A stretch of 35,703 nucleotides of DNA from Lysobacteraceae bacterium (GTDB lineage: Bacteria; Pseudomonadota; Gammaproteobacteria; Cardiobacteriales; Wohlfahrtiimonadaceae), in contig JAAZCI010000031.1 in the NCBI GenBank assembly GCA_012513365.1, positions 1 through 35,703 of the forward strand. The letters run 5' to 3'. The notes below the pieces were generated by a model. The model made no database searches. It saw only the letters and a list, made by a program, of their open reading frames with translations, and was not told the DNA's origin. Each line of letters starts with the position of its first letter. The stretch's first letter is position 1. The position numbers and the translations under genes were made by a program. Shown in pieces: positions 1-20,970 of the stretch.

Positions 1-1146
1 GAGGTATTAGAAGCCTCTGAAGATCGCGTGGCGCCGATTTGTGATGTATACGGCATGTGTGGCGGTTGTAGACTGCAACATTTAGATCCGAATCGTCAAA
101 TTGAATTTAAGGCGATGCAACTTGAGAGCAATCTTGAAAGACAAGCGGGATTAACCGAATATGAGCGTTTAGCGCCCCTTCGAAGTGCGTCAGAAGGCTA
201 TCGTTATAAAGCCCGTCTTGGCGTTAAAAATGTTCCGGCGAAAGGGCGGGTGTTAGTCGGTTTTCGTGAGCGTTTAACGCCCTTTATCGTGGATATGAAA
301 CGTTGCCCCATCTTGGAAGATAAGATCGATTCACTTATTGAACCGCTCTCTGAAATGATTGGTAAACTCACCATTGCCGGCACGCTTCCGCAAATTGAAG
401 TGGCGGTCGGTGAATCGGTTCATGCGTTAAGTCTGCGGGTTTTAGAAACGCCCACCGAAGAGGATCTTGCAATTTTAAAAGCCTTTGAAGCGGAGCACGA
501 TCTCATTTTATATCTGCAGCCTGGCAATGAATCGACTACCGTTGCGCTCTCTGAGCGGGGCGAGTCGGATCAGGCGATCTCCTATTCGCTTCTCGATTCA
601 TTAACGCTCTATTTTAAACCGTATCACTTCACGCAGGTCAATCCTGTGATGAATGATAAGATGGTGCGTCAAGCGCTCGATCTTCTTGATCTAAAAGGCG
701 ATGAACATGTGCTCGACCTTTTCTGCGGCCTTGGGAATTTTACCTTAGCGTTAGCGACACAGGCAAAATCTGTGATCGGCGTTGAGGGCGATAAGAGTCT
801 TACCGATTGGGCAGGGCGGAATGCGGGCTTTAATGATATTGATAACGTTGAGTTCCATTGTGCGGATTTAACGAAAGATCAATCATCAGAGCCGTGGATG
901 AATCAGACGTACGATGTCTTATTGATCGATCCGCCTCGTTCTGGCGCGCTTGAGATGATGGCCTATATTGGTCAGCTTGCGCCGAAGAAAATTTTATATG
1001 TATCGTGCCATCCGGCAACGCTTGCGCGAGATTTGGGAGTGCTCACCAAAGAGCATCCTTATAAGCTCGTTTCTGCCGGCGTGATGGATATGTTTCCGCA
1101 TACTGCACATGTGGAATCAATGGCACTTTTAGTGAAAGATGAATAA
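1..1146 (+). CDS. rlmD: 23S rRNA (uracil-C5)-methyltransferase RlmD, 5' truncated by window edge
   Basis: SAM-dependent methyltransferase expected to make m5U1939 in 23S rRNA. The frame is open from base 1 without a start that fits, and the family carries an N-terminal TRAM domain, so the real start lies upstream of the window; GTG at 28 is only the first in-window candidate. Counting from that GTG, Cys5, Cys11 and Cys14 (C-x5-C-x2-C) plus Cys93 are the expected iron-sulfur ligands. The SAM-binding motif LDLFCGLGNFTLALA follows in the middle, then IDPPRSG and the catalytic cysteine in YVSCHPATLARDL. The stop is 2 bases before the rdgC start, so the two are probably co-transcribed. RlmD rather than TrmA or RlmC is favoured by the Fe-S cysteines and the CGGC-x2-QH pattern, but the paralogues are similar. 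Confidence 0.9.
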   Translation, partial: EVLEASEDRVAPICDVYGMCGGCRLQHLDPNRQIEFKAMQLESNLERQAGLTEYERLAPLRSASEGYRYKARLGVKNVPAKGRVLVGFRERLTPFIVDMKRCPILEDKIDSLIEPLSEMIGKLTIAGTLPQIEVAVGESVHALSLRVLETPTEEDLAILKAFEAEHDLILYLQPGNESTTVALSERGESDQAISYSLLDSLTLYFKPYHFTQVNPVMNDKMVRQALDLLDLKGDEHVLDLFCGLGNFTLALATQAKSVIGVEGDKSLTDWAGRNAGFNDIDNVEFHCADLTKDQSSEPWMNQTYDVLLIDPPRSGALEMMAYIGQLAPKKILYVSCHPATLARDLGVLTKEHPYKLVSAGVMDMFPHTAHVESMALLVKDE

Positions 1147-1148
1147 TT

Positions 1149-2033
1149 ATGCGTCTATTTAAAAACTTTTTAGTCTACCAATTTGAAGAACCGCTTGAGC
1201 TCACGCTGTCTGAGCTTGAAGAAGCCCTTGCCGAGCGTCCTCTTGTGGGATGTTTTGAGCAGGAGATGGAATCCTTTGGTTGGCTAACGGCCTTCAATAG
1301 CGGAAAAACCTTTGTTGAGGCCGTGGATGGCGCGTATTTTATTCGCATGGGCGTTGAGCGTAAAAAACTGCCCCGTTTAGCGATTAAAACCGCCGTTGAA
1401 AAGCGCGCGGAAGAGCGAGAGCTAAAAATCGAAACGCGCAGCCAATATAAGGAGGTGGAAGAGGTCATTATTAATGAATTGATGGCTAATGCACTTCCGG
1501 AGCGTAGCTCGCTATCGGCCTATATCGATATCGACAAAAATTGGCTCGTGATCGATGCAACGAGCGTGAAAAAGGCATCGGAATTAACCGGGCTTTTGCG
1601 TAAAACGCTCGGCACACTGCCCGTTGTTGCGCTTGCACCGAAAGTTGCGCTTGCGAGTGTGATGACCGAATGGGTGCAAAAAGGCATTACCAGTGAGCGT
1701 TTTACTCTTCTCGATGAAATTGAGATGAAAGAGCTCACTAAAGAAGAGGGCGGTACGGCGCGTTATAAAGGCATTCCGGCGATGTCAAAAGAGATTTTAC
1801 AAAATCTTGAAGATGGTTGGGATGTGACGCGTTTATCACTGCTTTTTAATGAGGCGGTGAGTTTTTCACTCGGGGAAGATTTCATTTTAAAACGCGTTAA
1901 ATATTTAGAGACCTTTCATGAAGAGCTCGATGAGAGCGATGATCTCTACACCATCGCTGCCGGCAGTGCACAATTACAAGTTTTAATGTTTCGTGAATTA
2001 ATGAGTGAGCTATATCAGCTTTGCCATCCATAA
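1149..2033 (+). CDS. rdgC: Recombination-associated protein RdgC
   Basis: RdgC is a ring-shaped double-strand DNA-binding protein that modulates RecA activity and is associated with the nucleoid. The protein is 294 aa, close to the usual ~300. It begins with the family-typical M-x-x-FKN-x-x-VY pattern (MRLFKNFLVYQF), has the central stretch with ASxKKAxxLxxLLRKxLGxLPVVxLxP and a downstream TEWV motif, all matching the Escherichia coli protein in order. It starts 2 bases after rlmD stops, suggesting translational coupling or at least one transcript, and is followed by a good intrinsic terminator at 2065-2089. No oddities seen. Confidence 0.93.
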   Translation: MRLFKNFLVYQFEEPLELTLSELEEALAERPLVGCFEQEMESFGWLTAFNSGKTFVEAVDGAYFIRMGVERKKLPRLAIKTAVEKRAEERELKIETRSQYKEVEEVIINELMANALPERSSLSAYIDIDKNWLVIDATSVKKASELTGLLRKTLGTLPVVALAPKVALASVMTEWVQKGITSERFTLLDEIEMKELTKEEGGTARYKGIPAMSKEILQNLEDGWDVTRLSLLFNEAVSFSLGEDFILKRVKYLETFHEELDESDDLYTIAAGSAQLQVLMFRELMSELYQLCHP

Positions 2034-2064
2034 ATCACGTAAAATAGTGAGATTATCCCATCTG

Positions 2065-2089
2065 AAAGCGATCTTGCATCGCTTTTTTT
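2065..2089 (+). terminator. Intrinsic terminator after rdgC
   Basis: Perfect 8-bp stem AAAGCGAT / ATCGCTTT with a 5-base loop CTTGC; the 3' arm runs into a total of seven T. It separates rlmD-rdgC from parE. Confidence 0.85.
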
Positions 2090-2133
2090 ATCCGAATAAT
2101 GAACGACTTTAAGAGTAAGAGTTACAAACAACT

Positions 2134-4032
2134 ATGAGCAATAAAGAGTATACCGCCACGTCGATAGAAGTGTTATCCGGTCTCGATCCTGTGCGTAAAC
2201 GCCCGGGAATGTATACCGACACGTCGCGTCCGAACCATATTTTGCAGGAGGTAATCGACAACTCCGTCGATGAGGCGCTCGCAGGATATGCCGATGAGGT
2301 GGTGGTAACGCTCTATGAAAATGGATTTTTAGGGGTGAAAGATAATGGGCGCGGGATGCCGGTCGATATTCACCCAGAGCACGGTGTCAGCGGGGTTGAG
2401 CTGATTTTAGCAACGCTCCATGCCGGCGGGAAATTCAATAGCGATAACTACCAGTTTTCGGGCGGACTTCACGGGGTTGGGGTATCGGTGGTGAATGCGC
2501 TTTCCGAGGTGTTTGAGGTCTATGTTAAACGCGATGGAAAAGAGCATAAGATCGTCTTTAACGATGGGAATAAAGCCAGTGAATTGGAAGTGGTTGGCAC
2601 CGTCGGGAAAAATAATCGCGGGACTGATATCCGTTTTCTCCCCGATCCCAAATATTTTGATTCCCCAAAAATTGCTAAAAAGTCGCTCTGCGATCTCCTT
2701 AAAGCTAAAGCGATTTTATGCGCAGGGCTCACCATTAAACTCATCGATGAAACCGCAAAAGAAGCGGATCAAAAAGAGATTGTTTGGCATTACGAATCGG
2801 GCGTTGAAGAGTATCTTTATGATTCACTCAAAAATGTCGATCATGTGCCAAGTGAAATTATTTTCGGCGAATTTAAAGCCGACAATGAAGAGATTATTTG
2901 GGGATTGGCGTGGAATGAAGAGGGCGCGCCTGTGATGGCAGAGAGCTACGTAAACCTCATTCCTACAACGCTTGGCGGAACGCACGTTAACGGTCTTAAA
3001 GCCGGATTAACCGATGCGCTGCGTGAATTTTGCGACCAAAGAAGTCTACTGCCGCGCGGAGTAAAAATTGCGCCGGACGATCTCTTTGCGCAGCTCAATT
3101 ATCTATTGTCAGTCAAGATGCAAGAGCCTCAATTTGCAGGGCAAACGAAAGAGCGTCTAAGTTCGCGCGATATTGCGGGCGTGATTACCAATGCGGTGCG
3201 CGACTTTTTTGCACTTTGGCTCAATAATCATGTGGAAGAGGCAGAAGCGATCGCTGATGTGGTAATCCGAAGTGCGCAAGCCCGTCTTAAAAGTTCCAAA
3301 ACCGTTTCCCGTAAACGGGTTTCACAAGGGCCAAAACTTCCGGGAAAATTGGCAGATTGCGTTAGTACCGATGTGAATCTCACCGAGCTCTTTTTAGTGG
3401 AAGGGGATTCGGCAGGCGGATCGGCAAAGCAGGCGCGAGATCGTGACACGCAAGCAGTAATGGCGCTTCGCGGGAAAATCTTAAATACCTGGGAAGTGGC
3501 GAGCTCGGAGATTTTAGCGTCAAAAGAGATTCATGATATTTCCGTTGCCATTGGGGTTGATCCTGATACCGACGATATTTCTGGGCTTCGGTACGGTAAA
3601 ATCTGTATATTGGCGGATGCGGATTCCGATGGGCTTCACATTGCGACCTTAATTTGTGCACTTTTTGTGAAACATTTCGAAAAATTAGTTGAGTCAGGTC
3701 ATATTTTTGTTGCTTTACCACCACTCTATCGCGTTGACGTGGGAAAAGAGGTCTTTTATGCGCTCGATGAGGAAGAAAAGAATCAGATAATGCATAAGAA
3801 TGCAGGGTCTCGCAGTAAAGTCACGGTTACCCGATTTAAAGGGCTTGGGGAGATGAATCCCATTCAATTGCGTGAAACAACGATGAATTATAAGACTAGA
3901 CGGTTAGTTCAATTGACTGTCGAAGATTTCAAAGATGTGTCCTCTGTATTTGATAAGTTGCTCGCTCGCGGAGAACGTGAAGCGCGGAAACGTTGGATCG
4001 AAGATACTCAATTTTCTCAAGTAGTTAACTAA
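2134..4032 (+). CDS. parE: DNA topoisomerase IV subunit B (ParE)
   Basis: ATPase subunit of topoisomerase IV, which decatenates replicated chromosomes together with ParC (not in this window). The 632 aa match the ~630 aa of the short gammaproteobacterial ParE and lack the GyrB insertion. GHKL ATPase elements: Glu39 and Asn43 in the QEVIDNSVDEA stretch, DNGRGMP at 70-76 and the glycine-rich lid GGLHGVGVSVVNALS near 110-124. The TOPRIM part shows EGDSAGGSAKQARDRDTQA and LADADSDGLHIA (ParE-type; GyrB usually has DADVDG). The C-terminal FKGLGEMNPIQLRETTM is ParE-like. The quinolone-resistance region looks like the E. coli wild type by eye. The ribosome-binding site is weak. A 174-base gap follows before pilM. 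Confidence 0.97.
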   Translation: MSNKEYTATSIEVLSGLDPVRKRPGMYTDTSRPNHILQEVIDNSVDEALAGYADEVVVTLYENGFLGVKDNGRGMPVDIHPEHGVSGVELILATLHAGGKFNSDNYQFSGGLHGVGVSVVNALSEVFEVYVKRDGKEHKIVFNDGNKASELEVVGTVGKNNRGTDIRFLPDPKYFDSPKIAKKSLCDLLKAKAILCAGLTIKLIDETAKEADQKEIVWHYESGVEEYLYDSLKNVDHVPSEIIFGEFKADNEEIIWGLAWNEEGAPVMAESYVNLIPTTLGGTHVNGLKAGLTDALREFCDQRSLLPRGVKIAPDDLFAQLNYLLSVKMQEPQFAGQTKERLSSRDIAGVITNAVRDFFALWLNNHVEEAEAIADVVIRSAQARLKSSKTVSRKRVSQGPKLPGKLADCVSTDVNLTELFLVEGDSAGGSAKQARDRDTQAVMALRGKILNTWEVASSEILASKEIHDISVAIGVDPDTDDISGLRYGKICILADADSDGLHIATLICALFVKHFEKLVESGHIFVALPPLYRVDVGKEVFYALDEEEKNQIMHKNAGSRSKVTVTRFKGLGEMNPIQLRETTMNYKTRRLVQLTVEDFKDVSSVFDKLLARGEREARKRWIEDTQFSQVVN

Positions 4033-4206
4033 AACTAAAGAAATGTAAATACCTTTTGAAAACTGATGATTATATTGACTTGAGTGTTTGATTTTTACCT
4101 GACTTCGATAGTATCATCACAATGCAAGAAATAAGATAATTAGAATTAGCTATTTTAAAATTTTAAATAAAGAATTTTATCAATTTATTTTGTAAGGAAA
4201 TTCACT

Positions 4207-5238
4207 GTGGCAAGACGACCTAATAAAGCTGTAGGAATCGATATCGGCACGACTTCGATCCGAATAGTCGAAGGAAACCGACGAGGAACAGACTTCTCGA
4301 TCGATCGTGCGTATGAATATATGTTTAATGAAGAAGTCATGCGAGACGGTCTTCCGGAAGAAGTGGATGTTTTAGGGATCCATCTACAACGGGCGATGAA
4401 ACAGCTTGGCGGAAGTAAAGAGGTGACAATGTCTGTGCCCTCCACTGCAATTATGACCTATAACGCGGTGATCGATGAAAACCTTAAGGGCGATGAGCTA
4501 TTTACAACGCTCGAAGCGAACTTAGGGCAATATATCCCATTTTCGGCCGATGAGGTAATGATGGATTGCCAGATTATTGGCTCATCAATTGAAGAAGAGT
4601 ATAAAAATGAAGTGCTCATTGTTGCAGCGGAAAAAGAGTTTGTAAACTCACGCTCGCTCTCATCAGAAATTGCAGGGCTTGAGGTGAAAATTGTGGATGC
4701 GGATATCTATGCGCTCACAACGCTCCTCGGGCTTAAATATGATTTCTCAAATTTTATTAAACAAGATGCGATTGTCTACATCGAGTCGGGCGTTTTTCGT
4801 ACTGGATTTTTCATTTTAAAAGGTGACGGAACAATCTACGCGCGTGAGATGCCGATTGGCGGTGACCGTTTAACAGAGATGATCTCAGATGAGCTTGATA
4901 TCTCTATGGATGATGCGGAAATTCAAAAACTGAATGCCGATTGGGAAAGCAATCCGATCTTAGCGAAATGCAAAGAGGCCTTTATCGAAGAGATGGTTAT
5001 CCAGGTTCAATCTGCAATGCATGCCTATGTGCCCAATAACCCACAAGTGAGTTTAAAACAGATTTTTGTTACCGGTGGTGGCGCGCTGGTACCGGGCTTT
5101 GTTGAAGCGCTTTCAGGATCACTTGATCGCGCGGTTGAGCGAATCAATCCGAGCGATATGGTTCAATTTAATGTACCTGGCGTTCAAGCTGAGAAATTTG
5201 CCATTGCGTGCGGTTTAGCGGTAAGGAGTATGCTCTAA
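4207..5238 (+). CDS. pilM: Type IV pilus assembly protein PilM (actin-like ATPase)
   Basis: Cytoplasmic actin-fold protein of the type IV pilus alignment complex; binds the N-terminal tail of PilN. It is 343 aa, near the usual ~350. The phosphate-1 motif VGIDIGTTSIRIVEG lies near the N-terminus and the adenosine-binding glycines VTGGGALVPGF near residue 295. The start is GTG, preceded by AAGGA with 8 bases spacing; no better ATG exists before the actin motif. First gene of pilMNOPQ. The 174 bases upstream (4033-4206) are AT-rich and presumably hold the operon promoter; I could not find a convincing -35/-10 pair there. The stop overlaps the pilN start (TAATG). Confidence 0.96.
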   Translation: MARRPNKAVGIDIGTTSIRIVEGNRRGTDFSIDRAYEYMFNEEVMRDGLPEEVDVLGIHLQRAMKQLGGSKEVTMSVPSTAIMTYNAVIDENLKGDELFTTLEANLGQYIPFSADEVMMDCQIIGSSIEEEYKNEVLIVAAEKEFVNSRSLSSEIAGLEVKIVDADIYALTTLLGLKYDFSNFIKQDAIVYIESGVFRTGFFILKGDGTIYAREMPIGGDRLTEMISDELDISMDDAEIQKLNADWESNPILAKCKEAFIEEMVIQVQSAMHAYVPNNPQVSLKQIFVTGGGALVPGFVEALSGSLDRAVERINPSDMVQFNVPGVQAEKFAIACGLAVRSML

Positions 5239-5810
5239 TGAATAATATTCGGATTAACTTATTGCCTTGGCGTGAAGCGCTTCAGTTTGAACGCGAAGAC
5301 CGTTTAAAGAAAACGCTCGCAGTAGCGGTACTGTTTGGGATTTTAATTGGGATTGCGGCGTGGTATGCGGTTGGCATGTATTATGACAGCCAAACCTATC
5401 GCGTTACCACTATTGAAACTGAGATGAATAAGCCTAAATATGCGCAAGCGGCTGCCAACTTAAGACAGCGTGAGGCACTGATTAAAGATCTATCGAATAA
5501 GCTTGAGGTGTTGAATGGCCTTAATACACAACGGGCTGAGATGGTGACTATATTAGAGCAACTCGCGTCGTCAAAAGAGAGCGGTGTATCGATTCACATT
5601 CTTGACTTTAAACCTACAGAGATCTCTTTTGTAGGGGCGGCGTTGTCTCAAGAGCGTCTAATTTCATTTACAGAGCGTCTTGAAACAGAGGTTGGACTTG
5701 CGCCAATTCCTTACTCTCAAGAGCATCGTGTGGGAAATGCAAAATTGACCCTGTTTGGGATCAAAATTCACCCCGAAGTTAAACGTAAAAAAGCAGAGTC
5801 AAAGGAGTAA
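5238..5810 (+). CDS. pilN: Type IV pilus assembly protein PilN
   Basis: Bitopic inner-membrane protein that joins PilM in the cytoplasm to PilO in the periplasm. It is 190 aa. The N-terminus holds the PilM-binding signature INLLPWR at residues 5-11, followed by one transmembrane helix at roughly 30-51, then a coiled-coil region and a small periplasmic domain. The ATG at 5238 is chosen because it shares one base with the pilM stop (TAATG), has AGGAG about 10 bases upstream, and puts the INLLPWR motif at the N-terminus. An in-frame start at 5208 would add ten residues from within pilM and is not credible. Confidence 0.95.
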   Translation: MNNIRINLLPWREALQFEREDRLKKTLAVAVLFGILIGIAAWYAVGMYYDSQTYRVTTIETEMNKPKYAQAAANLRQREALIKDLSNKLEVLNGLNTQRAEMVTILEQLASSKESGVSIHILDFKPTEISFVGAALSQERLISFTERLETEVGLAPIPYSQEHRVGNAKLTLFGIKIHPEVKRKKAESKE

Positions 5811-5813
5811 GCC

Positions 5814-6473
5814 GTGAATAAAGATATATTAAGCTTAAGTGGCCTTGCAAAACTGAAAGCGCCGATTCGTTATGGTGTGGTGGTTGTGGTATTTATTATC
5901 AGTGCGGTAGTTGCGGCGCTCGGATTGATCTATTCATACAGTGCTTATCCTGAAAAGTTTGAGCAATTAGCCCGTGACGAGGAGAGTAAGCTTGATGAGT
6001 TAGAACGCCGTCAACGCGCATCTCTTTTAGTTGAGCACTACGAGAGTTCGATCAAAGAGGCGGAAAAAACGCTTGGTGAGATTAAATTGATGTTGCCAGA
6101 GACTGTTGAAGCATCGAACTTCATGGCGGAACTTCATCGTAACGCAACTGAAAATGATATCTATCTTACGCGCCGTACCCCGCTTGCGATGAAAAAGCAT
6201 AAAAGTGGCTTTGTTGAAGAGATTCCCGTTTTGATTGAAGGGTGTGCATCGTATCACCGCATTGGTGACTTTGTTGCGAATCTATCTAACTTACAACGGA
6301 TTATTACGCTCGATGAATTTACGATGAGCGATCCTGATCTATTAAATAATCGTCAGGTGAGTTTTGGGAATTTAGGTGTCAATATTCGTGTGTCTAATCG
6401 CGTCAACTGTGAGCAAGTAGGGGGAGGCTACCCTTTTTCAGCGACCATCTCTACTTATAAATACGTAGAGTAG
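5814..6473 (+). CDS. pilO: Type IV pilus inner membrane protein PilO
   Basis: Partner of PilN in the inner-membrane alignment subcomplex; the heterodimer also contacts PilP. It is 219 aa (family ~205-215). A single transmembrane helix at about 21-43 is followed by a charged coiled-coil segment (about 44-95) and the ferredoxin-like periplasmic domain. The GTG start sits 3 bases after the pilN stop and has AAGGAG upstream (inside the pilN 3' end). Six bases separate its stop from the first possible pilP start. Confidence 0.94.
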   Translation: MNKDILSLSGLAKLKAPIRYGVVVVVFIISAVVAALGLIYSYSAYPEKFEQLARDEESKLDELERRQRASLLVEHYESSIKEAEKTLGEIKLMLPETVEASNFMAELHRNATENDIYLTRRTPLAMKKHKSGFVEEIPVLIEGCASYHRIGDFVANLSNLQRIITLDEFTMSDPDLLNNRQVSFGNLGVNIRVSNRVNCEQVGGGYPFSATISTYKYVE

Positions 6474-6491
6474 TCGAGGGTGAAAAAAGAT

Positions 6492-7082
6492 ATGAAAAAA
6501 GTATTGATAGCAGTGGCTCTACCTGCCTTATTAACGGGATGTTTTTTTGATACAGACAAGCCCGATGTAGAGGAATTAATTAATGAGCGCTTTCAAAAAG
6601 CGTCACAACAAGTGAATCTTACGGTCAAACGTGAGCCAATCATTCCGATGAAGATTGAAAATTTCTCAAGACCCTATGAAGGAAAGGAATATCCAGATCC
6701 TTTTGAGATTGAGGCTGAGTTAAGCGATATCTTAAATCCGAAAGGGGGGCCTGATAGCTATGGAACGCATACACTGAATGTGGATCCAGAGCGCCCAGAG
6801 GGTTATATTCCTGGCTTATTAGAACAGTACTCCTTACAAGAGCTTACTCTAATAGGAACTATTGGAACGACCGAGAATCCAAAAGTGTTGGTGAAGGTGA
6901 TGGGTGAAAATCCACTGGCGACACAAACCGTTGGACTTGGTGATTATATGGGAACAAATTTTGGACGCGTAGTGCAGATTGTTCCTGATCAATATGTGCG
7001 AATTGTAGAGAAATTTGCTTCAGATAAGACCGAAGAGGGTTGGGAAGCAAAAGAACGAATTATTAATTTAGAGATTAAGTAA
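6492..7082 (+). CDS. pilP: Type IV pilus lipoprotein PilP
   Basis: Inner-membrane-attached lipoprotein linking PilN/PilO to the secretin PilQ. From the ATG at 6492 the protein is 196 aa, with a lipoprotein signal peptide ending in the lipobox L-L-T-G-C (Cys17). The remainder is the disordered linker and a C-terminal beta domain, with GTIG and GDYMGTNFGRV-x-QI-x-PD typical of PilP. I prefer the ATG at 6492 over the in-frame GTG at 6480 because that GTG overlaps the only Shine-Dalgarno-like sequence (GAGGG, 6476-6480); using GTG would add four residues. Fourth gene of pilMNOPQ. Confidence 0.92.
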   Translation: MKKVLIAVALPALLTGCFFDTDKPDVEELINERFQKASQQVNLTVKREPIIPMKIENFSRPYEGKEYPDPFEIEAELSDILNPKGGPDSYGTHTLNVDPERPEGYIPGLLEQYSLQELTLIGTIGTTENPKVLVKVMGENPLATQTVGLGDYMGTNFGRVVQIVPDQYVRIVEKFASDKTEEGWEAKERIINLEIK

Positions 7083-7110
7083 AGGCTATTGTATTTAGGA
7101 GCTGTTGGTT

Positions 7111-9153
7111 ATGTTATTGAAAAGATATGCATCTAATATCACAAAAACCGGTGCGGTTTTACTGCTGTTAAGCGGGTTTTTAAGTGCGTCTGCTCAGACG
7201 CTTCAAAACGTTGAAGCCGTTGATTTGCAAGACGGAACGCAAACATTAAAATATTACTTTGATCAGTCAGTAGCGGCGCCAAGCCATTACTATATTAAAG
7301 AGCGCGATGTACTTGTATTTGATTTTAACGCAAAAGGCGTTTATCAAAATGCAAAAAACCGAGTGCTTGATACGCGTTTAATCGATAACGTTCAAAACGT
7401 TTATATGAATAATCGTCTTCGTTCAACGGTGAATCTAAGTGGCAAAACCGATTATACAGTCGCAGTAAAAAACAATGTAGTCACGGTTCACTTAACTAAC
7501 ACTGCAAAATTAACAAAAGCGAATTGGGACAACCTTGTTGACCAAAACCAAAAAGTTGATAACGTTGCGCCATTAAACGATATTAACTTTATGCGCAATT
7601 CAGCAGGCGCGGGCGTGATTGATGTGTTTTTACCTAGCAGTCAAACACCGGTTAATGTTGTAGAAGAGCGTAACAAGATTCGCTTAATGGTAGGTGGACA
7701 TACTTGGGATCCATCACAAAATCGTCGTATTGATGTGACGGATTTTGCAACGCCGGTATCTGCGGTTGAAGTGGTGAATATTGCAGGACGTGCTTACGTT
7801 GATATCATGACGCATTCATCCTATGACTACACAGCGCAACAAATTAACGGAAATAAATATCGTTTAACGGTATCACCGAAGATTGAAGCGAAAGTGGCAA
7901 GTCTTGATGAGGGCAGTGCGCTTAAACGTGACCAATGGTCTGGTGAGCCTATCTCTATTAACTTCCAAGACATTGATGTGCGTGCGGTACTACAAATTAT
8001 TGCGGACTACACTGGCTTAAACATTGTAGTGAGCGATACCGTTAACAGCCGCATTACCATTAAACTTACCAATGTGCCTTGGGACCAAGCGCTTGATACG
8101 GTTCTTCTCTATTCAGGTTTAGGTCAAGCACGTGATGGAAATGTAATTTTTATCGCTCCGCAAGATCAATTAACCCGTTTTGAAGGCGTTAACTTAAGAA
8201 CTGAGCTGGTTCAAATTAACTACGCTGATGCATCTGATTTAGCACAAGTGATTGCAACCCGTGTTGGCGCGCAACAAAACGTAGATGCAGTGGGTGCTGG
8301 ATTATCAAAACATGGATCGGTGAGCGTTGACCGTCGCACAAACATGCTCATTATCCAAGATACCAATCGTCAAATTAAAATCATTAAAGATTTAATTGCA
8401 GAGCTTGACCGTCCTGTACGTCAAGTGCAAATTTCAGCACAAATCGTAGCGGCATTTGATAACTTTGCTCGCGACTTAGGTGTTGTTTGGGGGGGCGGTT
8501 ACCAAAAAGGTAAAGCACAAGGGGGCGGAAGCCTACAAAGTGACGGAGCTGAAGGTGGCGTTTTAGGTGGACTTGATACAGGGATTAATCTGGGCGCGAG
8601 TAATAAGACCTTTGGACTTCAATATATGGTTTTAGGAAAAGAACTTCAGTTGGGCCTAGAACTTTCTGCGATGCAGACTGAAAATAAAGGTGAGACCTTA
8701 GCATCGCCAGTTGTATTAACAACGGATCGTCAAACAGCGTATATTAAGCAAGGTTCTGAGATTTCATATAGTGTGACATCGAATGATGGGGTAGCAAATG
8801 TTGAGTTTAAAGAAGTGGTTATGGAGCTTAACGTAACGCCACAGATCACCCCTGATAATAAAATTATTATGGATCTTTTGATCACTAAAGATGAGCTTGC
8901 AGGGTATGCACAAAACCAAGAGCCAATTATTGCGAAGAAAGAGTTAAAAACTCAGGCACTGGTTTCTGATGGAGAAACGATTGTTCTAGGCGGTATCTAT
9001 GAACAAGAGAGCTCTAAGATTGATAGTAAAGTACCTTTCTTTGGTGATTTGCCGATCTTAGGAAATCTCTTCAAACGTCAAGAGAACAGCAATCGTAAGG
9101 CTGAGTTACTTATCTTTGTAACCCCTAATATTATTGATCTTCAAGAGTATTAA
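7111..9153 (+). CDS. pilQ: Type IV pilus secretin PilQ
   Basis: Outer-membrane multimeric secretin through which the pilus fibre passes. It is 680 aa from the ATG at 7111, which has AGGAG nine bases upstream; an in-frame TTG at 7105 is unlikely. Order of parts: signal peptide ending near SASA (about 28 residues), two AMIN-type peptidoglycan-binding domains (roughly 35-130 and 155-255), an STN/N0 domain starting at about 280 (SINFQDIDVRAVLQIIADY), an N1 domain, then the secretin core. The core carries the glycine-rich segment near 475 and the signature VPFFGDLPILGNLFK near the C-terminus. The stop is 5 bases before the aroK reading frame, and a strong intrinsic terminator follows at 9178-9211. 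Confidence 0.96.
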   Translation: MLLKRYASNITKTGAVLLLLSGFLSASAQTLQNVEAVDLQDGTQTLKYYFDQSVAAPSHYYIKERDVLVFDFNAKGVYQNAKNRVLDTRLIDNVQNVYMNNRLRSTVNLSGKTDYTVAVKNNVVTVHLTNTAKLTKANWDNLVDQNQKVDNVAPLNDINFMRNSAGAGVIDVFLPSSQTPVNVVEERNKIRLMVGGHTWDPSQNRRIDVTDFATPVSAVEVVNIAGRAYVDIMTHSSYDYTAQQINGNKYRLTVSPKIEAKVASLDEGSALKRDQWSGEPISINFQDIDVRAVLQIIADYTGLNIVVSDTVNSRITIKLTNVPWDQALDTVLLYSGLGQARDGNVIFIAPQDQLTRFEGVNLRTELVQINYADASDLAQVIATRVGAQQNVDAVGAGLSKHGSVSVDRRTNMLIIQDTNRQIKIIKDLIAELDRPVRQVQISAQIVAAFDNFARDLGVVWGGGYQKGKAQGGGSLQSDGAEGGVLGGLDTGINLGASNKTFGLQYMVLGKELQLGLELSAMQTENKGETLASPVVLTTDRQTAYIKQGSEISYSVTSNDGVANVEFKEVVMELNVTPQITPDNKIIMDLLITKDELAGYAQNQEPIIAKKELKTQALVSDGETIVLGGIYEQESSKIDSKVPFFGDLPILGNLFKRQENSNRKAELLIFVTPNIIDLQEY

Positions 9154-9158
9154 TCGAA

Positions 9159-9743
9159 ATGATGTATACAAATGATCAAACTGTCTTCCTTTTGGAAGAC
9201 AGTTTTTTTTTGATAGGGCCAATGGGGTCGGGCAAAAGTACTATTGGGAAGCTACTAGCACGCCGGTTAAAGTGCACATTTAAAGATAGTGATGAAGCGA
9301 TTGTCGAGCGGTCAGGCGTCACCATTCCCCATATTTTTGATGTGGAAGGGGAGGTCGGATTTCGAAAACGAGAAACGGCGATGATCGATGAGCTTACGCA
9401 AATATCTCCGATGATTTTATCAACCGGGGGTGGCGCGGTCGTCACTAAAGAAAATCGTGAGCTGTTAAAGGCACGCGGGCAGGTGATCTATCTGAATGTG
9501 TCGCCACAAGAGCAATTTAATCGAGTGCGATATGATACCAATCGCCCGCTTTTGCAAAATGAGGATCCGCTGAAGGTTTTAGAAACGCTCTATAGCATCC
9601 GTGATCCGCTTTATCGTGAGTGCGCAAATTATATGATCTTTTCAGATAAACTGCCTCCGAAAGTTGTGGTTGATGGTATTATAGAGCATATTATAAACAA
9701 TGATAGACCTTACCCTGACTGGTTAGTTGAGATAAATAGATGA
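9159..9743 (+). CDS. aroK: Shikimate kinase (AroK)
   Basis: Phosphorylates shikimate to shikimate-3-phosphate in the chorismate pathway. It is 194 aa, about 15-20 more than most AroK, the excess at both ends. P-loop GPMGSGKST at 20-28, shikimate-binding FKDSDEA near 40, GGGAV near 92, and the lid region around NRPLLQ. The start is uncertain: ATG 9159 or ATG 9162, both with a poor ribosome-binding site; TTG 9192 is a weaker alternative. Whichever is used, a perfect 12-bp terminator hairpin (9178-9211) overlaps the first codons, and no usable start exists beyond it because the P-loop strand follows at once. The stop overlaps aroB (ATGA). Confidence 0.93.
   Translation: MMYTNDQTVFLLEDSFFLIGPMGSGKSTIGKLLARRLKCTFKDSDEAIVERSGVTIPHIFDVEGEVGFRKRETAMIDELTQISPMILSTGGGAVVTKENRELLKARGQVIYLNVSPQEQFNRVRYDTNRPLLQNEDPLKVLETLYSIRDPLYRECANYMIFSDKLPPKVVVDGIIEHIINNDRPYPDWLVEINR
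9178..9211 (+). terminator. Intrinsic terminator after pilQ, located inside the 5' coding region of aroK
   Basis: Perfect 12-bp stem AAACTGTCTTCC / GGAAGACAGTTT with a TTTT loop; the 3' arm continues into a total of nine T. It lies 25 bases past the pilQ stop but within the aroK reading frame (about codons 7-18). It could end the pil transcript or act as a translation-sensitive attenuator for aroK-aroB; the sequence alone cannot decide. Confidence 0.8.
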
Positions 9744-10816
9744 AAAAATTAACGATCGATTTAGGCACGCGCTCTTATCCCATTTTGATGGCTGAAAATT
9801 TATTGGAGCGTGAAGAGATCACCTCTTTTTTAAACCCATCACAGCGTCTAGTGGTTACCAATGATACGATTTATGACTATCATAAAGAGACTATTTTAAA
9901 ACTGGTGGATCAAGATGCTTCGCGCGTATTGATTTTGCCTGATGGTGAGCGTTATAAAAGCGCCGAATCGCTCAATACAATTTTAACCGAACTTCTTACG
10001 CTTGAATTTAATCGAAATAGTCAGCTGATTGCTTTTGGCGGTGGCGTGATTGGTGACCTTGTGGGCTTTGCTGCAAGTATCTATCAACGCGGCATTGATT
10101 TTATTCAAGTGCCGACAACGCTTCTAGCGCAAGTCGATAGCTCTGTAGGTGGGAAAACGGCGATCAATCACCCTTTAGGGAAAAATATGATCGGCAGTTT
10201 TTATCAGCCAAGCGCGGTTTTAATGGATCTCTCACTCCTTAAAACACTTCCCAAACGGGAATATTTAAGTGGTTTAGCCGAAGTGTTAAAGTACGGTTTT
10301 ATCTTAAGCGATGAGTTTTTAATCTGGCTCGAAGCCAATCGTGAGAAAATTTTAGCGCTTGATTTTGAGGTGGTCTCTGAGATGATCTACCGTGCGTGTA
10401 GTTTTAAGCGAGATGTAGTCAATCAAGATGAAACAGAGCAGGGCGTTCGTGCGCTCCTCAATCTTGGGCATACGTTTGGGCATGCAATTGAGCGAAATAT
10501 GAAGTATCAAGGCGTTTTGCATGGCGAAGCGGTGTCGATTGGTACGGTAATGGCTGGGAAACTCTCTGAGCTTGCAGGCTTTATTTCTCATGCGGATTTT
10601 GCTCGATTGGAGTCACTCCTTGATGAATTTGGTTTACCTATTCGTCAAGAAACGGTGATTGAGATGGATGCGATGATGAGCGCGATGCGTCTTGATAAGA
10701 AAAATCGTGATAAAAAAATTCGCTTTGTTCTCCTAAAATCAATGGGATCGGCTGAGGTAGTTGATGCGATAGAGGAAGGTCTAATTTTAGCAGCAATCAA
10801 ATACGGAATGGTTTAA
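9740..10816 (+). CDS. aroB: 3-dehydroquinate synthase (AroB)
   Basis: NAD- and divalent-metal-dependent cyclisation of DAHP to 3-dehydroquinate, second step of the shikimate pathway. It is 358 aa, the normal length. NAD-binding GGGVIGDLVGFAASIYQRG near 95-113, then PTTLLAQVDSSVGGKTAIN, and metal-ligand motifs GLAEVLKYG, NLGHTFGHAIE and LHGEAVSIG in order. Start overlaps the aroK stop by four bases (ATGA) and the stop shares a base with the next start (TAATG), so aroK, aroB and the DamX-like gene should be translationally coupled. Confidence 0.97.
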   Translation: MKKLTIDLGTRSYPILMAENLLEREEITSFLNPSQRLVVTNDTIYDYHKETILKLVDQDASRVLILPDGERYKSAESLNTILTELLTLEFNRNSQLIAFGGGVIGDLVGFAASIYQRGIDFIQVPTTLLAQVDSSVGGKTAINHPLGKNMIGSFYQPSAVLMDLSLLKTLPKREYLSGLAEVLKYGFILSDEFLIWLEANREKILALDFEVVSEMIYRACSFKRDVVNQDETEQGVRALLNLGHTFGHAIERNMKYQGVLHGEAVSIGTVMAGKLSELAGFISHADFARLESLLDEFGLPIRQETVIEMDAMMSAMRLDKKNRDKKIRFVLLKSMGSAEVVDAIEEGLILAAIKYGMV

Positions 10817-16404: not shown

Positions 16405-17301
16405 ATGTTAAAAGTTACACCGCCCAAGCAATCCCCTAAAGTGAAAACCGATGGCGTGACCACTGCCAGTCAAAAGCAGAGTCCTGAAGCTCAAAAAAAA
16501 GCGAGTAAGGCAAAGAAGAAGCGTAAAGCATCGGGCTCATCGCTCGGATGGGGTTTTTTCCAAGGATTTAATCTATTTTTTACCTTTGTGATCCTGCTCG
16601 GGCTCGGCATTGTGACCTATATTATGGTGGGCGGTGAAAATCGTCATCAAGGGTTGCCAAAATATGTGCTCGATCAAGCGACGGATAACGGTCAGGTGAT
16701 TTTTAATCCGCAAATTCCTGAAGAGGTGCGCCAAAGTTATATCTATGTGCCACCGGTGAAAGAGGAGATCAATGCAGAAGAGCTCGAGCAGATCGAGCAG
16801 ATTGCCAAAGCCCCTGATTTTGATCTAAAACTCTCAAGTGTAGGGGAAACAGTGGGGCAAGGTGAAGGGTCATCAACTGCAACTGATGATCAAGATTCGC
16901 TCCCTAAGTTATCACTTACCTCTGTTGGTAGTGATGCACTGAATGATGCAAATGCTGAAGATTTTGAGTTGGAACGGGCGCAAGTTCAAATCGAAAGTTT
17001 TATCGATCAAGCGCAACATGCGATGTCTGAGGGGCGTTATGTTGGCGTGAATCATGATGATGCGTACTATTTTTATACGCAAGTACTCTTTTTAGATGTC
17101 GAGAATCCAGTCGCGAAAGCAGGGCTTCATGACATTGCCAATCTCTACTTCCAAAATGCGCAAAAAGCGCTTTATGAAGGGGATCTCACCAATGCAGAGA
17201 CCTTTATTAAGGTGGGGCTAGTAGTGATGCCAAATCATCGTGAACTCTTGCAGCTTGAAGATGAATTTAAACGCTATTTAGAAACCATGCGCCTCAATTA
17301 G
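16405..17301 (+). CDS. Hypothetical membrane-anchored protein with C-terminal TPR-like repeats
   Basis: Not a family I recognise. It is 298 aa: a strongly basic, Lys/Ser-rich cytoplasmic tail at 1-48, one transmembrane helix at about 51-75, an acidic low-complexity stretch at about 115-200, and a helical C-terminus at about 205-298. The end looks like two TPR-type helix pairs (A-YYFYTQVLFLDVENPVAKAGL, then YFQNAQKALYEGDLTNAE and V-M-P-N-H). Predicted N-in, with the TPR part in the periplasm. It is 17 bases after maf and before a strong terminator. A role in envelope assembly is possible but is only a guess. Confidence 0.8.
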   Translation: MLKVTPPKQSPKVKTDGVTTASQKQSPEAQKKASKAKKKRKASGSSLGWGFFQGFNLFFTFVILLGLGIVTYIMVGGENRHQGLPKYVLDQATDNGQVIFNPQIPEEVRQSYIYVPPVKEEINAEELEQIEQIAKAPDFDLKLSSVGETVGQGEGSSTATDDQDSLPKLSLTSVGSDALNDANAEDFELERAQVQIESFIDQAQHAMSEGRYVGVNHDDAYYFYTQVLFLDVENPVAKAGLHDIANLYFQNAQKALYEGDLTNAETFIKVGLVVMPNHRELLQLEDEFKRYLETMRLN

Positions 17302-17323
17302 TTTGCGTTTTAAGATTTAAATA

Positions 17324-17367
17324 AAAACACCCAAAGGATCGATGATTGGCTCTTTGGGTGTTTTTTT
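17324..17367. terminator. Bidirectional intrinsic terminator between convergent genes
   Basis: Stem AAAACACCCAAAG (17324-17336) / CTTTGGGTGTTTT (17352-17364), 15-base loop; T-run on the plus strand to 17367 and a matching A-run on the other side. It can serve the plus-strand kdsA-maf region and the minus-strand NadE-like gene. Confidence 0.88.
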
Positions 17368-17417
17368 ATGTCGTGTGATTAAATTTTAATATTCACTATC
17401 TAGTCTAGCTGAACTAT

Positions 17418-19025
17418 CTATTCAATCGGATCGGCAAGTGCGCCGGTATATTTTCGGTGTAGATCATGCCACGATTTTGAAAGCGCTTTTGTGGTGAAAT
17501 AGGGCCCTGGTAATCGATAGCGGTTATAAAGATTATTAAGATCGATCTGTTTAGCGATGCGAGTGACAAGCTCAAGATCATGATCAAACTGGGCGATATA
17601 CTCTTCCGTTTCACGGCGATCAAGATAACGAAACAGGATCTGATCGACCTCTTTAAAGGAGAGTTCAGCCCCGTCACACACATTCGGGTGGCGGAAAATC
17701 TCACTTTTTGCACCAGCCATCACCTCTTTGTTTAAAAGTTTGCCTTCAAGATCACGATAATCGGCAAGGCGTAAAATATCCGTGCGGTACAGGTCAATAA
17801 AAGGCATATAGTGGCCGGCTGCGGTCATTCCGTGACCTTTAAGTTTCAGCTTAATTTGGGTTTTATTAATCGGCCCGAGCACAATGGCGTTATGCAGATC
17901 ACTAAAGGCAAGGAGTAATCCTTTTTTGTAGCGGTCAACGCTCTCTTCTGCCCAATTAATTGGGGGATCGATTGAGGCATCTTTCCGTTTTGACATTAAT
18001 GCATTGCGTAGGTGATCTTTATTGATGTCATATTCATAAAGACGTACGTTGAGGCGTTTACAGAGCGTACGAATATTTTTAAGATCGCTTGGAAGATCAT
18101 CGGCGGTGGTAAAGTGAACGGGATAAACCTTATCAGCTCCGAGCGCATCGACGGCAAGCGTTAACAGAAGATGGGATTCTAAGCATTTACCGATATAGAG
18201 TGTTACTTTATCTTCTGGTACATAATTGAGCATCTCTTGGAGACCAAACATCAGTGCGCGGTAGAGCGTTGCATCTAAATGTTCTTGCACCTCTAACGGT
18301 GGCAATTTGTTAATGGTACCAATATCAAAGAGCACGTGCCCTTCGTTAAACCGTTTGCCCCCACCGACCTGTTCGCCTCGGTCATTAATCACCATGGCAT
18401 AGCCTGAAAAAATAAATTGATCGCAGGAGGTGAGCGCATTGGAGATAATGATGGGAGTTTGAATGGTTTTTGCGGTAGTTTGAAAGGCATTTCGATTGGT
18501 AAGATGGCGACGATTACTCCAGTGAAACGCACTCATCAATAAAAGCGCATCGCATTTTGGGAGACGATTAGGGTCGAGGAAGTCTTCGCTGATTGCAATC
18601 CCGATTGTCTTGCCTTTAATGGTGAAAGTGGTTGGCTTGTCGCCCGGCGAAATATAGTAATTTTCCATCACAAGCTCAGTGGAGGAGAGTGTGCCTTTTC
18701 GGTGAATTCCAAGGATTTGCCCATTTTTGACAATCGCAGCGCTACTATAGAGAGAATGATGATCGCGCTCAGGAAAGCCAACGATGGCCACAATATCGGT
18801 GGAATGATGGGCGATCTCATAGAGTGCCTCGCGAGCGTCATCGATAAACTTAGGTTTTAAGAGATAATCGCTGGCCCCGTAGCCTGAAATCGTCAGTTCA
18901 GGGAAGAGGATAATATCGGCATTTGATTGTTTTGCCTGTGTGATCGCAGCTAAAATGCGCTTTTTATTATACTCGATATGTCCCGGCACGGTTTTCAATT
19001 GGGTCACTGCAATGGTTAATGTCAT
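17418..19025 (-). CDS. NadE-like protein (glutamine-dependent NAD+ synthetase fold) lacking key catalytic motifs
   Basis: Overall layout is that of the two-domain NAD+ synthetase: a nitrilase-like glutaminase domain (about 1-255) and a synthetase domain (about 265-535), 535 aa in all, the normal length with no internal stop. The glutaminase triad is incomplete: Glu43 (FPELTISGYG) and Lys110 (HRKG) are in place, but the nucleophile position, normally I-C-E-D, reads I-S-E-D (Ser146). In the synthetase domain the PP-loop S-G-G-x-D-S is replaced by G-K-C-L-E-S at about 279-284, although the following LAVDALGADKV is well conserved. The TGNKSE motif reads G-P-I-N-K-T-Q. Homology is clear but NAD synthesis looks unlikely. 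Start ATG has AAGGTAAGAAG upstream; an inverted repeat lies at 19038-19054. Confidence 0.85.
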   Translation of the reverse strand: MTLTIAVTQLKTVPGHIEYNKKRILAAITQAKQSNADIILFPELTISGYGASDYLLKPKFIDDAREALYEIAHHSTDIVAIVGFPERDHHSLYSSAAIVKNGQILGIHRKGTLSSTELVMENYYISPGDKPTTFTIKGKTIGIAISEDFLDPNRLPKCDALLLMSAFHWSNRRHLTNRNAFQTTAKTIQTPIIISNALTSCDQFIFSGYAMVINDRGEQVGGGKRFNEGHVLFDIGTINKLPPLEVQEHLDATLYRALMFGLQEMLNYVPEDKVTLYIGKCLESHLLLTLAVDALGADKVYPVHFTTADDLPSDLKNIRTLCKRLNVRLYEYDINKDHLRNALMSKRKDASIDPPINWAEESVDRYKKGLLLAFSDLHNAIVLGPINKTQIKLKLKGHGMTAAGHYMPFIDLYRTDILRLADYRDLEGKLLNKEVMAGAKSEIFRHPNVCDGAELSFKEVDQILFRYLDRRETEEYIAQFDHDLELVTRIAKQIDLNNLYNRYRLPGPYFTTKALSKSWHDLHRKYTGALADPIE

Positions 19026-19037
19026 CTTCTTACCTTT

Positions 19038-19054
19038 ATTGACAAGTCGTCAAT
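19038..19054. promoter_or_regulatory. Inverted repeat upstream of the NadE-like gene, candidate operator
   Basis: ATTGAC-N5-GTCAAT, perfect 6-bp arms, 12 bases before the start codon and just upstream of the ribosome-binding site. Position suits a repressor site or an RNA hairpin near the start. No regulator can be named. The rest of 19055-19208 is AT-rich with no gene. Confidence 0.3.
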
Positions 19055-19208
19055 GCATATCAACACGAAAGTATATATATAATTATAGGTTATTACCATT
19101 ATTATCATTATATTACATTGTCGACGATATAGCTTTAAATAGTGTGGTATTGATTAGAATCGTATGCAGTTTTTTGAGAAGGGTTAAGTATTGATGATAA
19201 CCATGCAT

Positions 19209-19257
19209 AAAAAAGCCTCGATTTTGATGGGATATCATCATAAATCGAGGCTTTTTT
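19209..19257 (-). terminator. Intrinsic terminator after ftsY
   Basis: Sixteen-bp stem AAAAAAGCCTCGATTT / AAATCGAGGCTTTTTT with a 17-base loop, 15 bases beyond the ftsY stop on the minus strand. It is symmetric enough to work both ways, but no plus-strand gene precedes it. Confidence 0.88.
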
Positions 19258-19272
19258 TACAGAAATATTAAC

Positions 19273-20802
19273 TTATGCTTTGTATTGAATAAGCGCTTCC
19301 ACAAACTCTTTTGCATTAAAGGGACGAAGATCATCGATCCCTTCACCCACGCCGATAAAGCGTACTGGAATCTTAAGCTCATCCGCAATGGCAAAGATAA
19401 TTCCGCCTTTTGCCGTTCCGTCCATTTTGGTAAATGAGATGCCCGATAGGGGGACAAACTCATTAAATTGACGGGCCTGATTGAGCGCATTTTGCCCCGT
19501 TCCCGCATCGACGACTAACATCACCTCATGAGGTGCAGTTTCATCTAAGCGTTTTGTCACGCGGTGAATTTTTTCAAGTTCTTTCATAAGGCCTGAATCG
19601 GTATGGAGACGGCCAGCAGTATCGGCAATTAAGATATCGACCTTTTTCGCTTTCGCCGATTCGATCGCATCAAAGATCACCGAGGCAGGGTCGGCGCCAT
19701 CTTTTTGTGATACGACGGGAATATGATTGCGCTCGCCCCATACTTTAAGCTGTTCAACGGCAGCGGCGCGGAAGGTATCGCCAGCGGCAAGCATGACGGA
19801 TTTGCCTTCAGCTTGGAATTTTTTCGCCAATTTTCCGATGGTGGTGGTTTTACCCACGCCATTGACGCCGACCATTAAGATAATATAGGGTGCTTTAGCA
19901 TCGTCGATCACAAGCGGTTCTTCCACCGGCGTTAAAATCTCTTCCATCTTGTGGCTGAGCGCTTTAAAGAGTTCATCTTGATTTGATAAGGCTTTACGCG
20001 AAACCTCTTCGCGGATCGATTCAAGCATGCGTTCGGTGGCGTTAATGCCAACATCTGCAAGGAGAAGGCGGGTTTCGAGCTCTTCTAAAATCTCATCATC
20101 AATCTCTTTTTTCCCTAAGAAGAGATCGGCAAAGCCTTCAGTAAGGCCAGCGCTTGTTTTCGCGAGTTGTTTTTTAAGGCGTGCAAAAAAGCCCTGTTTT
20201 TTCGGTTTTTCTTGGGTTTCCTGTGTGGGCGCAGGCGTTTCGGGTTCGGGATCAACCTCGGTCTCTACTTCAGTTTTAGTGACGGATTCAGTTACTGTAG
20301 ACTCGATAGCTGCAGGCTCATCTGGATCTTCGGCAATAGGCTCAGGCGTTGACGGCTCGTCCTGAATCTTTTCAATCTCTACAATCTCCTCATCTGAATC
20401 ATCTTCGAGCGCTTCTAGATCGTCCTCTGATTCTTCATCTGTATCATCATCAGCGGAATCATCAAACATAAATGCATCGGTGAGTTCATTGGCAAATGCA
20501 TTAAGAGCGCGAGGGGATTCCGTTTCGCTCATCTCTTCGAGAGTTTTGTCTAAAACTTGTTCAGCTTCATCGACTGTTTCGGGCGATGATTCGAATGAAT
20601 CTGGTTCAGGCGTGATCGCTTCAGGCGCGGTTTCCGCTTTAGTACCTTGGGAAGAAGGGGCGTCTGAAACCGCTTTTTCTTCTGAAACGGGCGCAGAATC
20701 AGCATCATTTTTGACTGAATCTTCTACAACTTCAGGGGCTTCATCTTTTGAAGAACCGCCAAATAATCGGCTAAACCAGCCTCTTTTCGTTTTTTTTGTC
20801 AT
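19273..20802 (-). CDS. ftsY: Signal recognition particle receptor FtsY
   Basis: GTPase receptor that docks SRP-ribosome complexes at the inner membrane and passes them to SecYEG or YidC. It is 509 aa from the ATG at 20802, which follows TTAGGA; a longer frame from 20847 adds 15 hydrophobic residues without a ribosome-binding site. The start MTKKTKRGWFSRLFGG is the typical membrane-targeting amphipathic piece. Residues about 18-195 form an acidic A domain very rich in Glu/Asp/Ser/Pro. The NG domain follows from about 205: GVNGVGKTTTIGKL at 312-325, DTFRAAAVEQL, DTAGRLHTD at 394-402, TKMDGTAKGG near 458. It is not next to ftsEX or rsmD as in E. coli. Confidence 0.96.
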   Translation of the reverse strand: MTKKTKRGWFSRLFGGSSKDEAPEVVEDSVKNDADSAPVSEEKAVSDAPSSQGTKAETAPEAITPEPDSFESSPETVDEAEQVLDKTLEEMSETESPRALNAFANELTDAFMFDDSADDDTDEESEDDLEALEDDSDEEIVEIEKIQDEPSTPEPIAEDPDEPAAIESTVTESVTKTEVETEVDPEPETPAPTQETQEKPKKQGFFARLKKQLAKTSAGLTEGFADLFLGKKEIDDEILEELETRLLLADVGINATERMLESIREEVSRKALSNQDELFKALSHKMEEILTPVEEPLVIDDAKAPYIILMVGVNGVGKTTTIGKLAKKFQAEGKSVMLAAGDTFRAAAVEQLKVWGERNHIPVVSQKDGADPASVIFDAIESAKAKKVDILIADTAGRLHTDSGLMKELEKIHRVTKRLDETAPHEVMLVVDAGTGQNALNQARQFNEFVPLSGISFTKMDGTAKGGIIFAIADELKIPVRFIGVGEGIDDLRPFNAKEFVEALIQYKA

Positions 20803-20970
20803 CGACAATCCTAATAACAGTTGAAAATATAAAAAAATGTGTAACAATATAGACCTACTGTATTTTAACAGGTTGCACTTTGAATTGTTACTCCGAATTC
20901 AGCACGAATCGGATGACAAATTAGAAATTTGAACACATTGTTCGATTTTTGATAAAAGGGCATAAAAGTC

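Follow-up and report, generated by a model that had tools for sequence, protein, structure and literature searches.

A NAD synthetase homologue that appears to have lost both active sites, very probably a retained pseudoenzyme, in Wohlfahrtiimonas and a related genus

We have found a homologue of the two-domain glutamine-dependent NAD synthetases (hereafter pseudo-NadE) that, judging by the alignments, no longer has the glutaminase nucleophile or the ATP-pyrophosphatase loop and retains little of the signature of the synthetase pocket. Its gene lies in a window of 35,703 nucleotides, which is the whole stretch of DNA analyzed here. Relatives dead at the same sites were found in two genera. They form a single clade, they are under purifying selection in Wohlfahrtiimonas and their fold is predicted to be intact, all of which speaks for the view, put forward earlier from the letters of the window (the sequence-only reading), that the protein is a retained pseudoenzyme. 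We consider this very probable. The fold of the pseudo-NadE group is known, but as a family of pseudoenzymes the group is new.

The open reading frame runs from an ATG to a TAG over 535 codons with no internal stop. Pfam places a CN_hydrolase domain at residues 4-232 and a NAD_synthase domain at 257-497, i.e., the layout of NAD synthetases, a nitrilase-like domain fused to a NAD_synthase domain within about 540 amino acids. The top NCBIfam model was that of the NAD+ synthase PRK13981, with 222 bits over residues 2-519 against an equivalog cut-off of 479 bits. Three of the eight sequences of the pseudo type were scanned with this model, and all three missed the cut-off (222, 298 and 273 bits). 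The frame, the Pfam domains and the PRK13981 match bear out what had been said of the normal length of 535 amino acids and the homology along both domains. The features of the gene and its surroundings are collected in Table 1.

Table 1. Features of the pseudo-NadE gene and its immediate neighbourhood (positions in the window).
Feature	Position	Strand	Basis or remark
pseudo-NadE gene	17418..19025	minus	535 aa; homologous to the two-domain glutamine-dependent NAD synthetases, without either active site
Nitrilase-like (former glutaminase) domain, about residues 1-246	18288..19025	minus	Pfam; Glu43, Tyr49, Lys110, Glu121 and Glu147 kept in 8/8 pseudo-type sequences
Ser146 codon, position of the glutaminase nucleophile Cys	18588..18590	minus	alignment
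Residues 277-284, YIGKCLES replacing GLSGGIDS (PP-loop)	18174..18197	minus	alignment
Residues 384-390, GPINKTQ replacing (T)TGNKSE	17856..17876	minus	alignment
ftsY (by eye), upstream neighbour, 247-bp gap	19273..20847	minus	ORF reading
Convergent neighbour, repeat-type protein (TPR-like by eye)	16405..17301	plus	ORF reading
14-bp hairpin, T runs on both strands, likely terminator shared with the convergent ORF	17323..17365		fold

As controls we used 128 two-domain NadEs, which were the best profile matches and not a random sample. The eight sequences of the pseudo type came from the window's genome (G000), from a second genome of the same species (G076) and from six genomes of Wohlfahrtiimonas. 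In what follows g1 is the genus of the window (G000 and G076), g2 is Wohlfahrtiimonas and g4 is a further genus of the same family, presumably Ignatzschineria. The motif SGGxDS was intact in all 128 controls, and so were, by alignment, the catalytic Glu and Lys. The glutaminase Cys was kept in 126 of them, the exceptions being L176 (Ser) and L201 (Gly). In the pseudo-type sequences the position of this Cys is occupied by Ser in 8/8. The SGGxDS loop is likewise without its first S, its second G and its D in 8/8, and reads GKCLES in two and DG[ST]xx[SC] in six. The loop of Wohlfahrtiimonas is milder than that of the window, with DGS in five of the six genomes and the exact DGSxNS in four. The GD of YGDM is absent throughout the group, and Lys388, Arg365 and Asp411 are retained in every member. 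The three replacements that had been named from the sequence, i.e., Ser146 within ISED at the position of the Cys, GKCLES (residues 279-284) for SGGxDS and GPINKTQ (residues 384-390) for TGNKSE, were all confirmed by the alignments. No usable Cys or SGGxDS that could replace them was apparent in the alignments elsewhere in the pseudo-NadE chain. The missing PP-loop argues against binding of ATP in the usual mode.

In an excerpt of PMC6946656 the catalytic residues of the glutaminase are given as Cys, Glu, Lys and a second Glu. By alignment and spacing they map to S146, E43, K110 and E121 of pseudo-NadE; the Glu, the Lys and the second Glu are kept in 8/8 pseudo-type sequences, and the Cys is Ser in all of them. 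Over the whole chain, 95 columns are conserved in at least 95% of the controls, and the pseudo-type sequences keep 22 of them, keep 30 partly and have lost 43. Full conservation is seen at 14 of the 33 columns that belong to the first domain and at 8 of the 62 that belong to the second. A further 16 columns are invariant in the pseudo group with residues present in 5% or less of the controls. Among them are G50, S94, S146, F167 and W169, located in the first domain and, by sequence, near the old glutamine pocket, which is altered in the eight sequences (Ser to Phe167, Trp169 and Pro to Gly50). The substitutions in pseudo-NadE are more than chance or ordinary drift would produce.

The two-domain fold is predicted to be intact. 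The nearest solved chain was 5kha, a glutamine-dependent NAD synthetase, with 144 bits. The AlphaFold model of pseudo-NadE, for which an alignment of 30 rows was used, reached a pLDDT of 85 and a pTM of 0.85, and could be superposed on the NAD synthetase 3n05 with a Z of 36.9 (491 residues aligned, rmsd 2.4). The model of the W. chitiniclastica relative had a pLDDT of 89. Pseudo-NadE is therefore like the two-domain NadEs (PRK13981; 5kha, 3n05, 4f4h) in domain order, length, predicted fold and homology along both domains, but it differs from them in lacking the Cys nucleophile, SGGxDS and TGNKSE and in falling short of their cut-off (222 bits vs. 479). The two exceptional controls, L176 from Kiritimatiellia and L201 from Bacteroidales, resemble pseudo-NadE in the replacement of the catalytic Cys, but since their PP-loop is intact they are probably still ammonia-dependent synthetases, perhaps natural two-domain enzymes that use ammonia only.

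The window's genome is 97% complete, with 6.9% contamination. Contamination as the source of pseudo-NadE was ruled out, since the clean genome of the same species (G076, three contigs, 1% contamination) carries both this gene and a single-domain NadE. A wrong frame or an assembly error was discarded too: the same frame, uninterrupted and 99.6% identical, is found in G076, in line with the earlier statement that the gene has neither stop nor frameshift. Among the 32 genomes of the order, full-length relatives (more than 800 bits) were detected in eight, i.e., G000, G076 and the six of g2. The other 24, including all nine of g4, had no full-length relative, with short matches of the nitrilase family in some of them. 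Since g4 lacks the gene, some relatives can do without it. Of the six g2 genomes, five correspond to named Wohlfahrtiimonas contigs (e.g. W. chitiniclastica DSM 18708 and W. larvae), and the sixth, G006, was assigned by its genus label; the NCBI taxonomy places Wohlfahrtiimonas in Ignatzschineriaceae, Cardiobacteriales. When 369 genomes of the class were searched (none of them Wohlfahrtiimonas), some match appeared in 331, with the window's genome at 811 bits and the next at 289, a value that falls in the range of ordinary two-domain NadEs.

We have estimated dN/dS for the 28 pairs of pseudo-type sequences by the method of Nei-Gojobori, with our own script. The two most similar pairs of Wohlfahrtiimonas gave 0.047 (G001-G004, dS 0.69) and 0.043 (G010-G012, dS 1.9), and the single-domain nadE of the same pairs gave 0.10 and 0.06, respectively. 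The other pairs with finite dS within this genus had values of 0.096 (G006-G012) and of 0.17 and 0.20, both of the latter with W. larvae (G008). Overall, five of the 15 Wohlfahrtiimonas pairs had a finite dS, with dN/dS between 0.04 and 0.20, and ten were saturated at synonymous sites. Between g1 and g2, 10 of the 12 pairs were saturated and the remaining two gave 0.36-0.37 at a dS of about 2.3. The species of the window provides one pair only, with three synonymous and two nonsynonymous changes, which says little on selection. Every one of the six Wohlfahrtiimonas genomes has an open frame, which in G008 reaches the contig end. These data show that pseudo-NadE is under purifying selection across the species of Wohlfahrtiimonas, and the low values argue against recent decay, which the sequence-only reading had also thought improbable.

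The eight sequences form one clade, with an SH-aLRT of 100 in a tree of 136 rows and a support of 100/99 in another of 53 rows (the eight pseudo rows plus 45 controls picked at random among the 128, seven long or odd rows having been left out beforehand). Identity between the pseudo-NadEs of g1 and g2 is 27-30%. Two independent losses joined by long branches are spoken against by the derived residues that both genera share, which exceeded the expectation of two shuffles. The same derived residue was found at 20 of the 74 columns in which neither genus retains the conserved residue, against a mean of 4.6 for a plain shuffle and of 11.1 for a shuffle within the ancestral residue (p 0.0004). In this comparison G000 stood for g1, and g2 was represented by the majority residue of five rows, without W. 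larvae, whose start is cut. Together with the single clade, the shared residues make a common ancestor of g1 and g2 that already had the dead form the simplest explanation, the gene having been lost from g4 or never present there.

In g1 the gene is located between the convergent repeat-type ORF and ftsY (Table 1). In four g4 genomes the repeat-type gene directly adjoins ftsY, 184-387 bp apart and with no gene between, and tblastn found in these gaps no match to a remnant better than E 0.65. In two Wohlfahrtiimonas stretches the gene is flanked on one side by what looks by eye like recN and on the other by the gene of a membrane protein (by eye of the BI-1 type), and neither in g1 nor in g2 is it adjacent to nadE. 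Given the gap that separates it from ftsY, the gene may have its own promoter; a scan of 17250-19350 gave no promoter-like site on the minus strand. The hairpin located 3' of the gene has a folding energy of -24.1 kcal/mol over a 111-nt stretch (z -3.7). It was not listed by a consensus scan of 17250-19350 because its 15-base loop exceeds what the scan allows. Elsewhere in the window, positions 28-10816 hold a run of ORFs resembling, by eye, a type IV pilus assembly cluster, and then aroK and aroB.

The search for another nadE, which had been proposed as a check, had a mixed outcome: a second gene of the NadE family is indeed present, but it looks like an NMN synthetase and NadD is missing. 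With this second gene in the genome, the main objection foreseen by the sequence-only reading, that pseudo-NadE might be the only nadE, fails. A strong single-domain NadE (at least 203 bits) was found in 29 of the 32 genomes of the order, the exceptions being G002, G017 and G019, and SGGxDS is intact in all 29 aligned. In the window's genome (G000:C22) it follows a gene for a nicotinate phosphoribosyltransferase (PRK07188, 564 bits, cut-off 378). Its best solved match was 3fiu, with 209 bits vs. 140 for the next. We take 3fiu to be the structure of the Francisella NMN synthetase; the name given in the PDB entry itself is NH(3)-dependent NAD(+) synthetase. The same structure was the best for the other three single-domain queries, from Wohlfahrtiimonas (192 vs. 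126), from g4 (216 vs. 155) and from another family (265 vs. 146), so that over the four queries it obtained 192-265 bits vs. 126-155 for the next structure. An EW motif after TDNxx is common to 3fiu and 23 of the 29 single-domain NadEs. The nearest solved relative of the single-domain NadE is then the Francisella type (NadE'), which, unlike the pseudo-NadE of the same genome, has a single domain and an intact SGGxDS. An excerpt of PMC3376133 describes the NadE homologue of Francisella as an NMN synthetase whose NAD synthetase activity is marginal, and states that NadM takes the place of NadD there; the NMN synthetase of Francisella is also given in excerpts of PMC7384224 and PMC11197623.

NadD (TIGR00482) was over its cut-off in none of the 18 genomes of the family vs. 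9 of 14 named control genomes. Weak matches to the NadD model were seen in 17 of the 18, and those that we followed were CoaD and NadR. All four CTP_transf_like proteins of G076 are CoaD, HldE, RibF or a 287-aa NMN adenylyltransferase of the NadR type, and the five of W. chitiniclastica G004 were identified likewise, with the addition of a complete NadR beside PnuC; none is NadD. The NadR-type adenylyltransferase of this Wohlfahrtiimonas genome is a stand-alone protein of 172 aa, separate from the complete NadR (L291, L292). A NadC-like protein of at least 193 bits is present in 15 of the 18 family genomes, G002, G005 and G013 being without it. NadD makes NaAD, the substrate of NAD synthetase, and enzymes of the NadR type prefer NMN over NaMN. 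Since NadD is absent, we infer that the single-domain NadE prefers NaMN over NaAD and would be an NMN synthetase. The combination of a Francisella-type NadE, a NadR-type adenylyltransferase and no NadD suggests that NAD is probably made in these bacteria from NaMN through NMN, with no NaAD, and that a true NAD synthetase may be dispensable to them. Two results count against the rerouting. The single-domain NadE scores 222 bits with the NCBI model for NAD(+) synthase (TIGR00552), whose cut-off of 64 it thus passes. The stand-alone NadR-type adenylyltransferases, for their part, obtain 156-178 bits against the NadR cut-off of 201, a shortfall explained by their being without the other NadR domains.

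Some observations made along the pathway deserve mention. The NadR-type NMN adenylyltransferases L290:521-1381 (G076, g1) and L293:405-1274 (G003, g4) have about 110 extra residues. By eye this part resembles a NadR kinase domain that lacks the P-loop, and it may be another degenerate domain, the second in this pathway. In G017, of the same order (family f2) and rated 100% complete, neither type of NadE had a strong match. G002 (genus g3, genome 80% complete) has no NadE and no QRPTase_C match, and codes for a 512-aa protein of the NAPRTase family (L255); perhaps it uses a NadV-type nicotinamide route. Two strong NadC-like matches were found in G000 (G000:C19 and G000:C88) vs. one in G076, which fits the contamination estimated for the former.

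The scenario that we favor starts from an ancestor of pseudo-NadE that was a two-domain glutamine-dependent NAD synthetase. A Francisella-type NadE, acting as NMN synthetase, would convert NaMN to NMN, and an NMN adenylyltransferase of the NadR type would then make NAD. NaAD would no longer be made, leaving the old enzyme free to lose its catalysis. A retained pseudoenzyme and a rerouting of NAD synthesis, taken jointly, seem to us the better bet, held with less assurance than either of them singly. Pseudo-NadE might have been kept as a protein whose nitrilase-like domain binds a small ligand without turnover (an amide or amine, e.g. glutamine or nicotinamide) and which could act as a sensor or regulatory partner. 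Such a non-catalytic, ligand-binding or regulatory role is the one we prefer, as a tentative proposal that is possible rather than probable. It is favored by a shift of constraint to the nitrilase-like domain, together with a Glu-Lys-Glu frame that is intact except for the nucleophile. Identity between G000 and four g2 rows is 34-35% in the nitrilase-like domain and 21-24% in the synthetase domain, whereas the means over 300 control pairs drawn at random are 42% and 55%, respectively. Also, nucleophile mutants (Cys to Ser or Ala) of amidases with the nitrilase fold have been crystallized, according to the entry titles, with putrescine (5h8l), nicotinamide (5ny7) and an endogenous ligand (4hgd), although these are, unlike pseudo-NadE, engineered and of a single domain. 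Against the ligand role counts the changed glutamine pocket (Phe167, Trp169, Gly50), which could be a closed one. Against the scenario as a whole count the absence of the gene from g4 and the looser selection in places, i.e., in the pairs with W. larvae and in those between g1 and g2. One could go further and imagine that after the switch to the NMN route the NAD synthetase became a dedicated non-catalytic sensor, with the amidase pocket reading glutamine or nicotinamide and the former synthetase domain relaying the signal to NAD or nitrogen metabolism, but this is speculative and we consider it rather unlikely.

Other explanations have to be weighed. Pseudo-NadE could use its old interdomain surfaces to bind directly to the single-domain NadE, or else to the NadR-type adenylyltransferase, and so be a scaffold or regulatory subunit instead of a ligand sensor. 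The fold predicted with confidence in both domains would suit this idea, and NAD synthetases made of two subunits, one of them the glutaminase, do exist (excerpt of PMC3376133). However, the gene does not lie beside nadE in either genus and g4 has the single-domain nadE without pseudo-NadE, so we regard a scaffold as unlikely. A glutaminase subunit serving the other NadE was rejected, since the Cys is lost. That the chemistry has changed, with Ser146 as nucleophile within the Glu-Lys-Glu frame of an esterase, an amidase or an acyl-transfer enzyme, would agree with the presence of the same Ser in both genera and with the conservation of Glu43, Lys110, Glu121, Glu147 and Tyr49 in 8/8, but the residues at the substrate side are altered and the ligand-bound crystals of the Cys-to-Ser/Ala mutants of this fold suggest, from their titles, that there is no turnover. 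We find this chemistry decidedly improbable.

Even less can be said for a protein that would still make NAD (or NMN) weakly through its altered sites. Lys388, Arg365 and Asp411 are kept throughout and the milder loop of Wohlfahrtiimonas (DGS, DGSxNS) points in that direction, yet the S, G and D of SGGxDS and the GD of YGDM are lost in 8/8, only eight of the 62 conserved columns of the synthetase domain are fully kept and another NadE is present, which makes such activity very doubtful. A pseudogene on its way out, free of stops by chance, would account for the low identity of the g1 and g2 sequences, for W. larvae changing faster and for the absence from g4. It is hardly credible in view of a dN/dS of about 0.05 in the two closest pairs, the frames that remain open across Wohlfahrtiimonas (in G008 up to the contig end) and the 106 invariant columns of the group.

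Pseudoenzymes are common. In the open-licence literature that we searched, and among the papers listed as judged by title or abstract, we found no doubly dead NAD synthetase under selection, nor NAD synthetase and pseudoenzyme treated together, nor Wohlfahrtiimonas in connection with NAD synthetase or NAD biosynthesis. Word searches gave no mention of NAD synthetase in the pseudoenzyme review PMC10211241, and no NAD or omics words in the W. chitiniclastica paper PMC13391898.

We can propose why the retained pseudoenzyme described here lost its activity: the pathway around it would have been rerouted, and its substrate would be gone. If this is true, neither pseudo-NadE nor the single-domain gene would rightly be called the NAD synthetase of Wohlfahrtiimonas, and these bacteria would provide a further, testable case of the amidation-first NAD route, with an adenylyltransferase of the NadR type instead of the NadM type.
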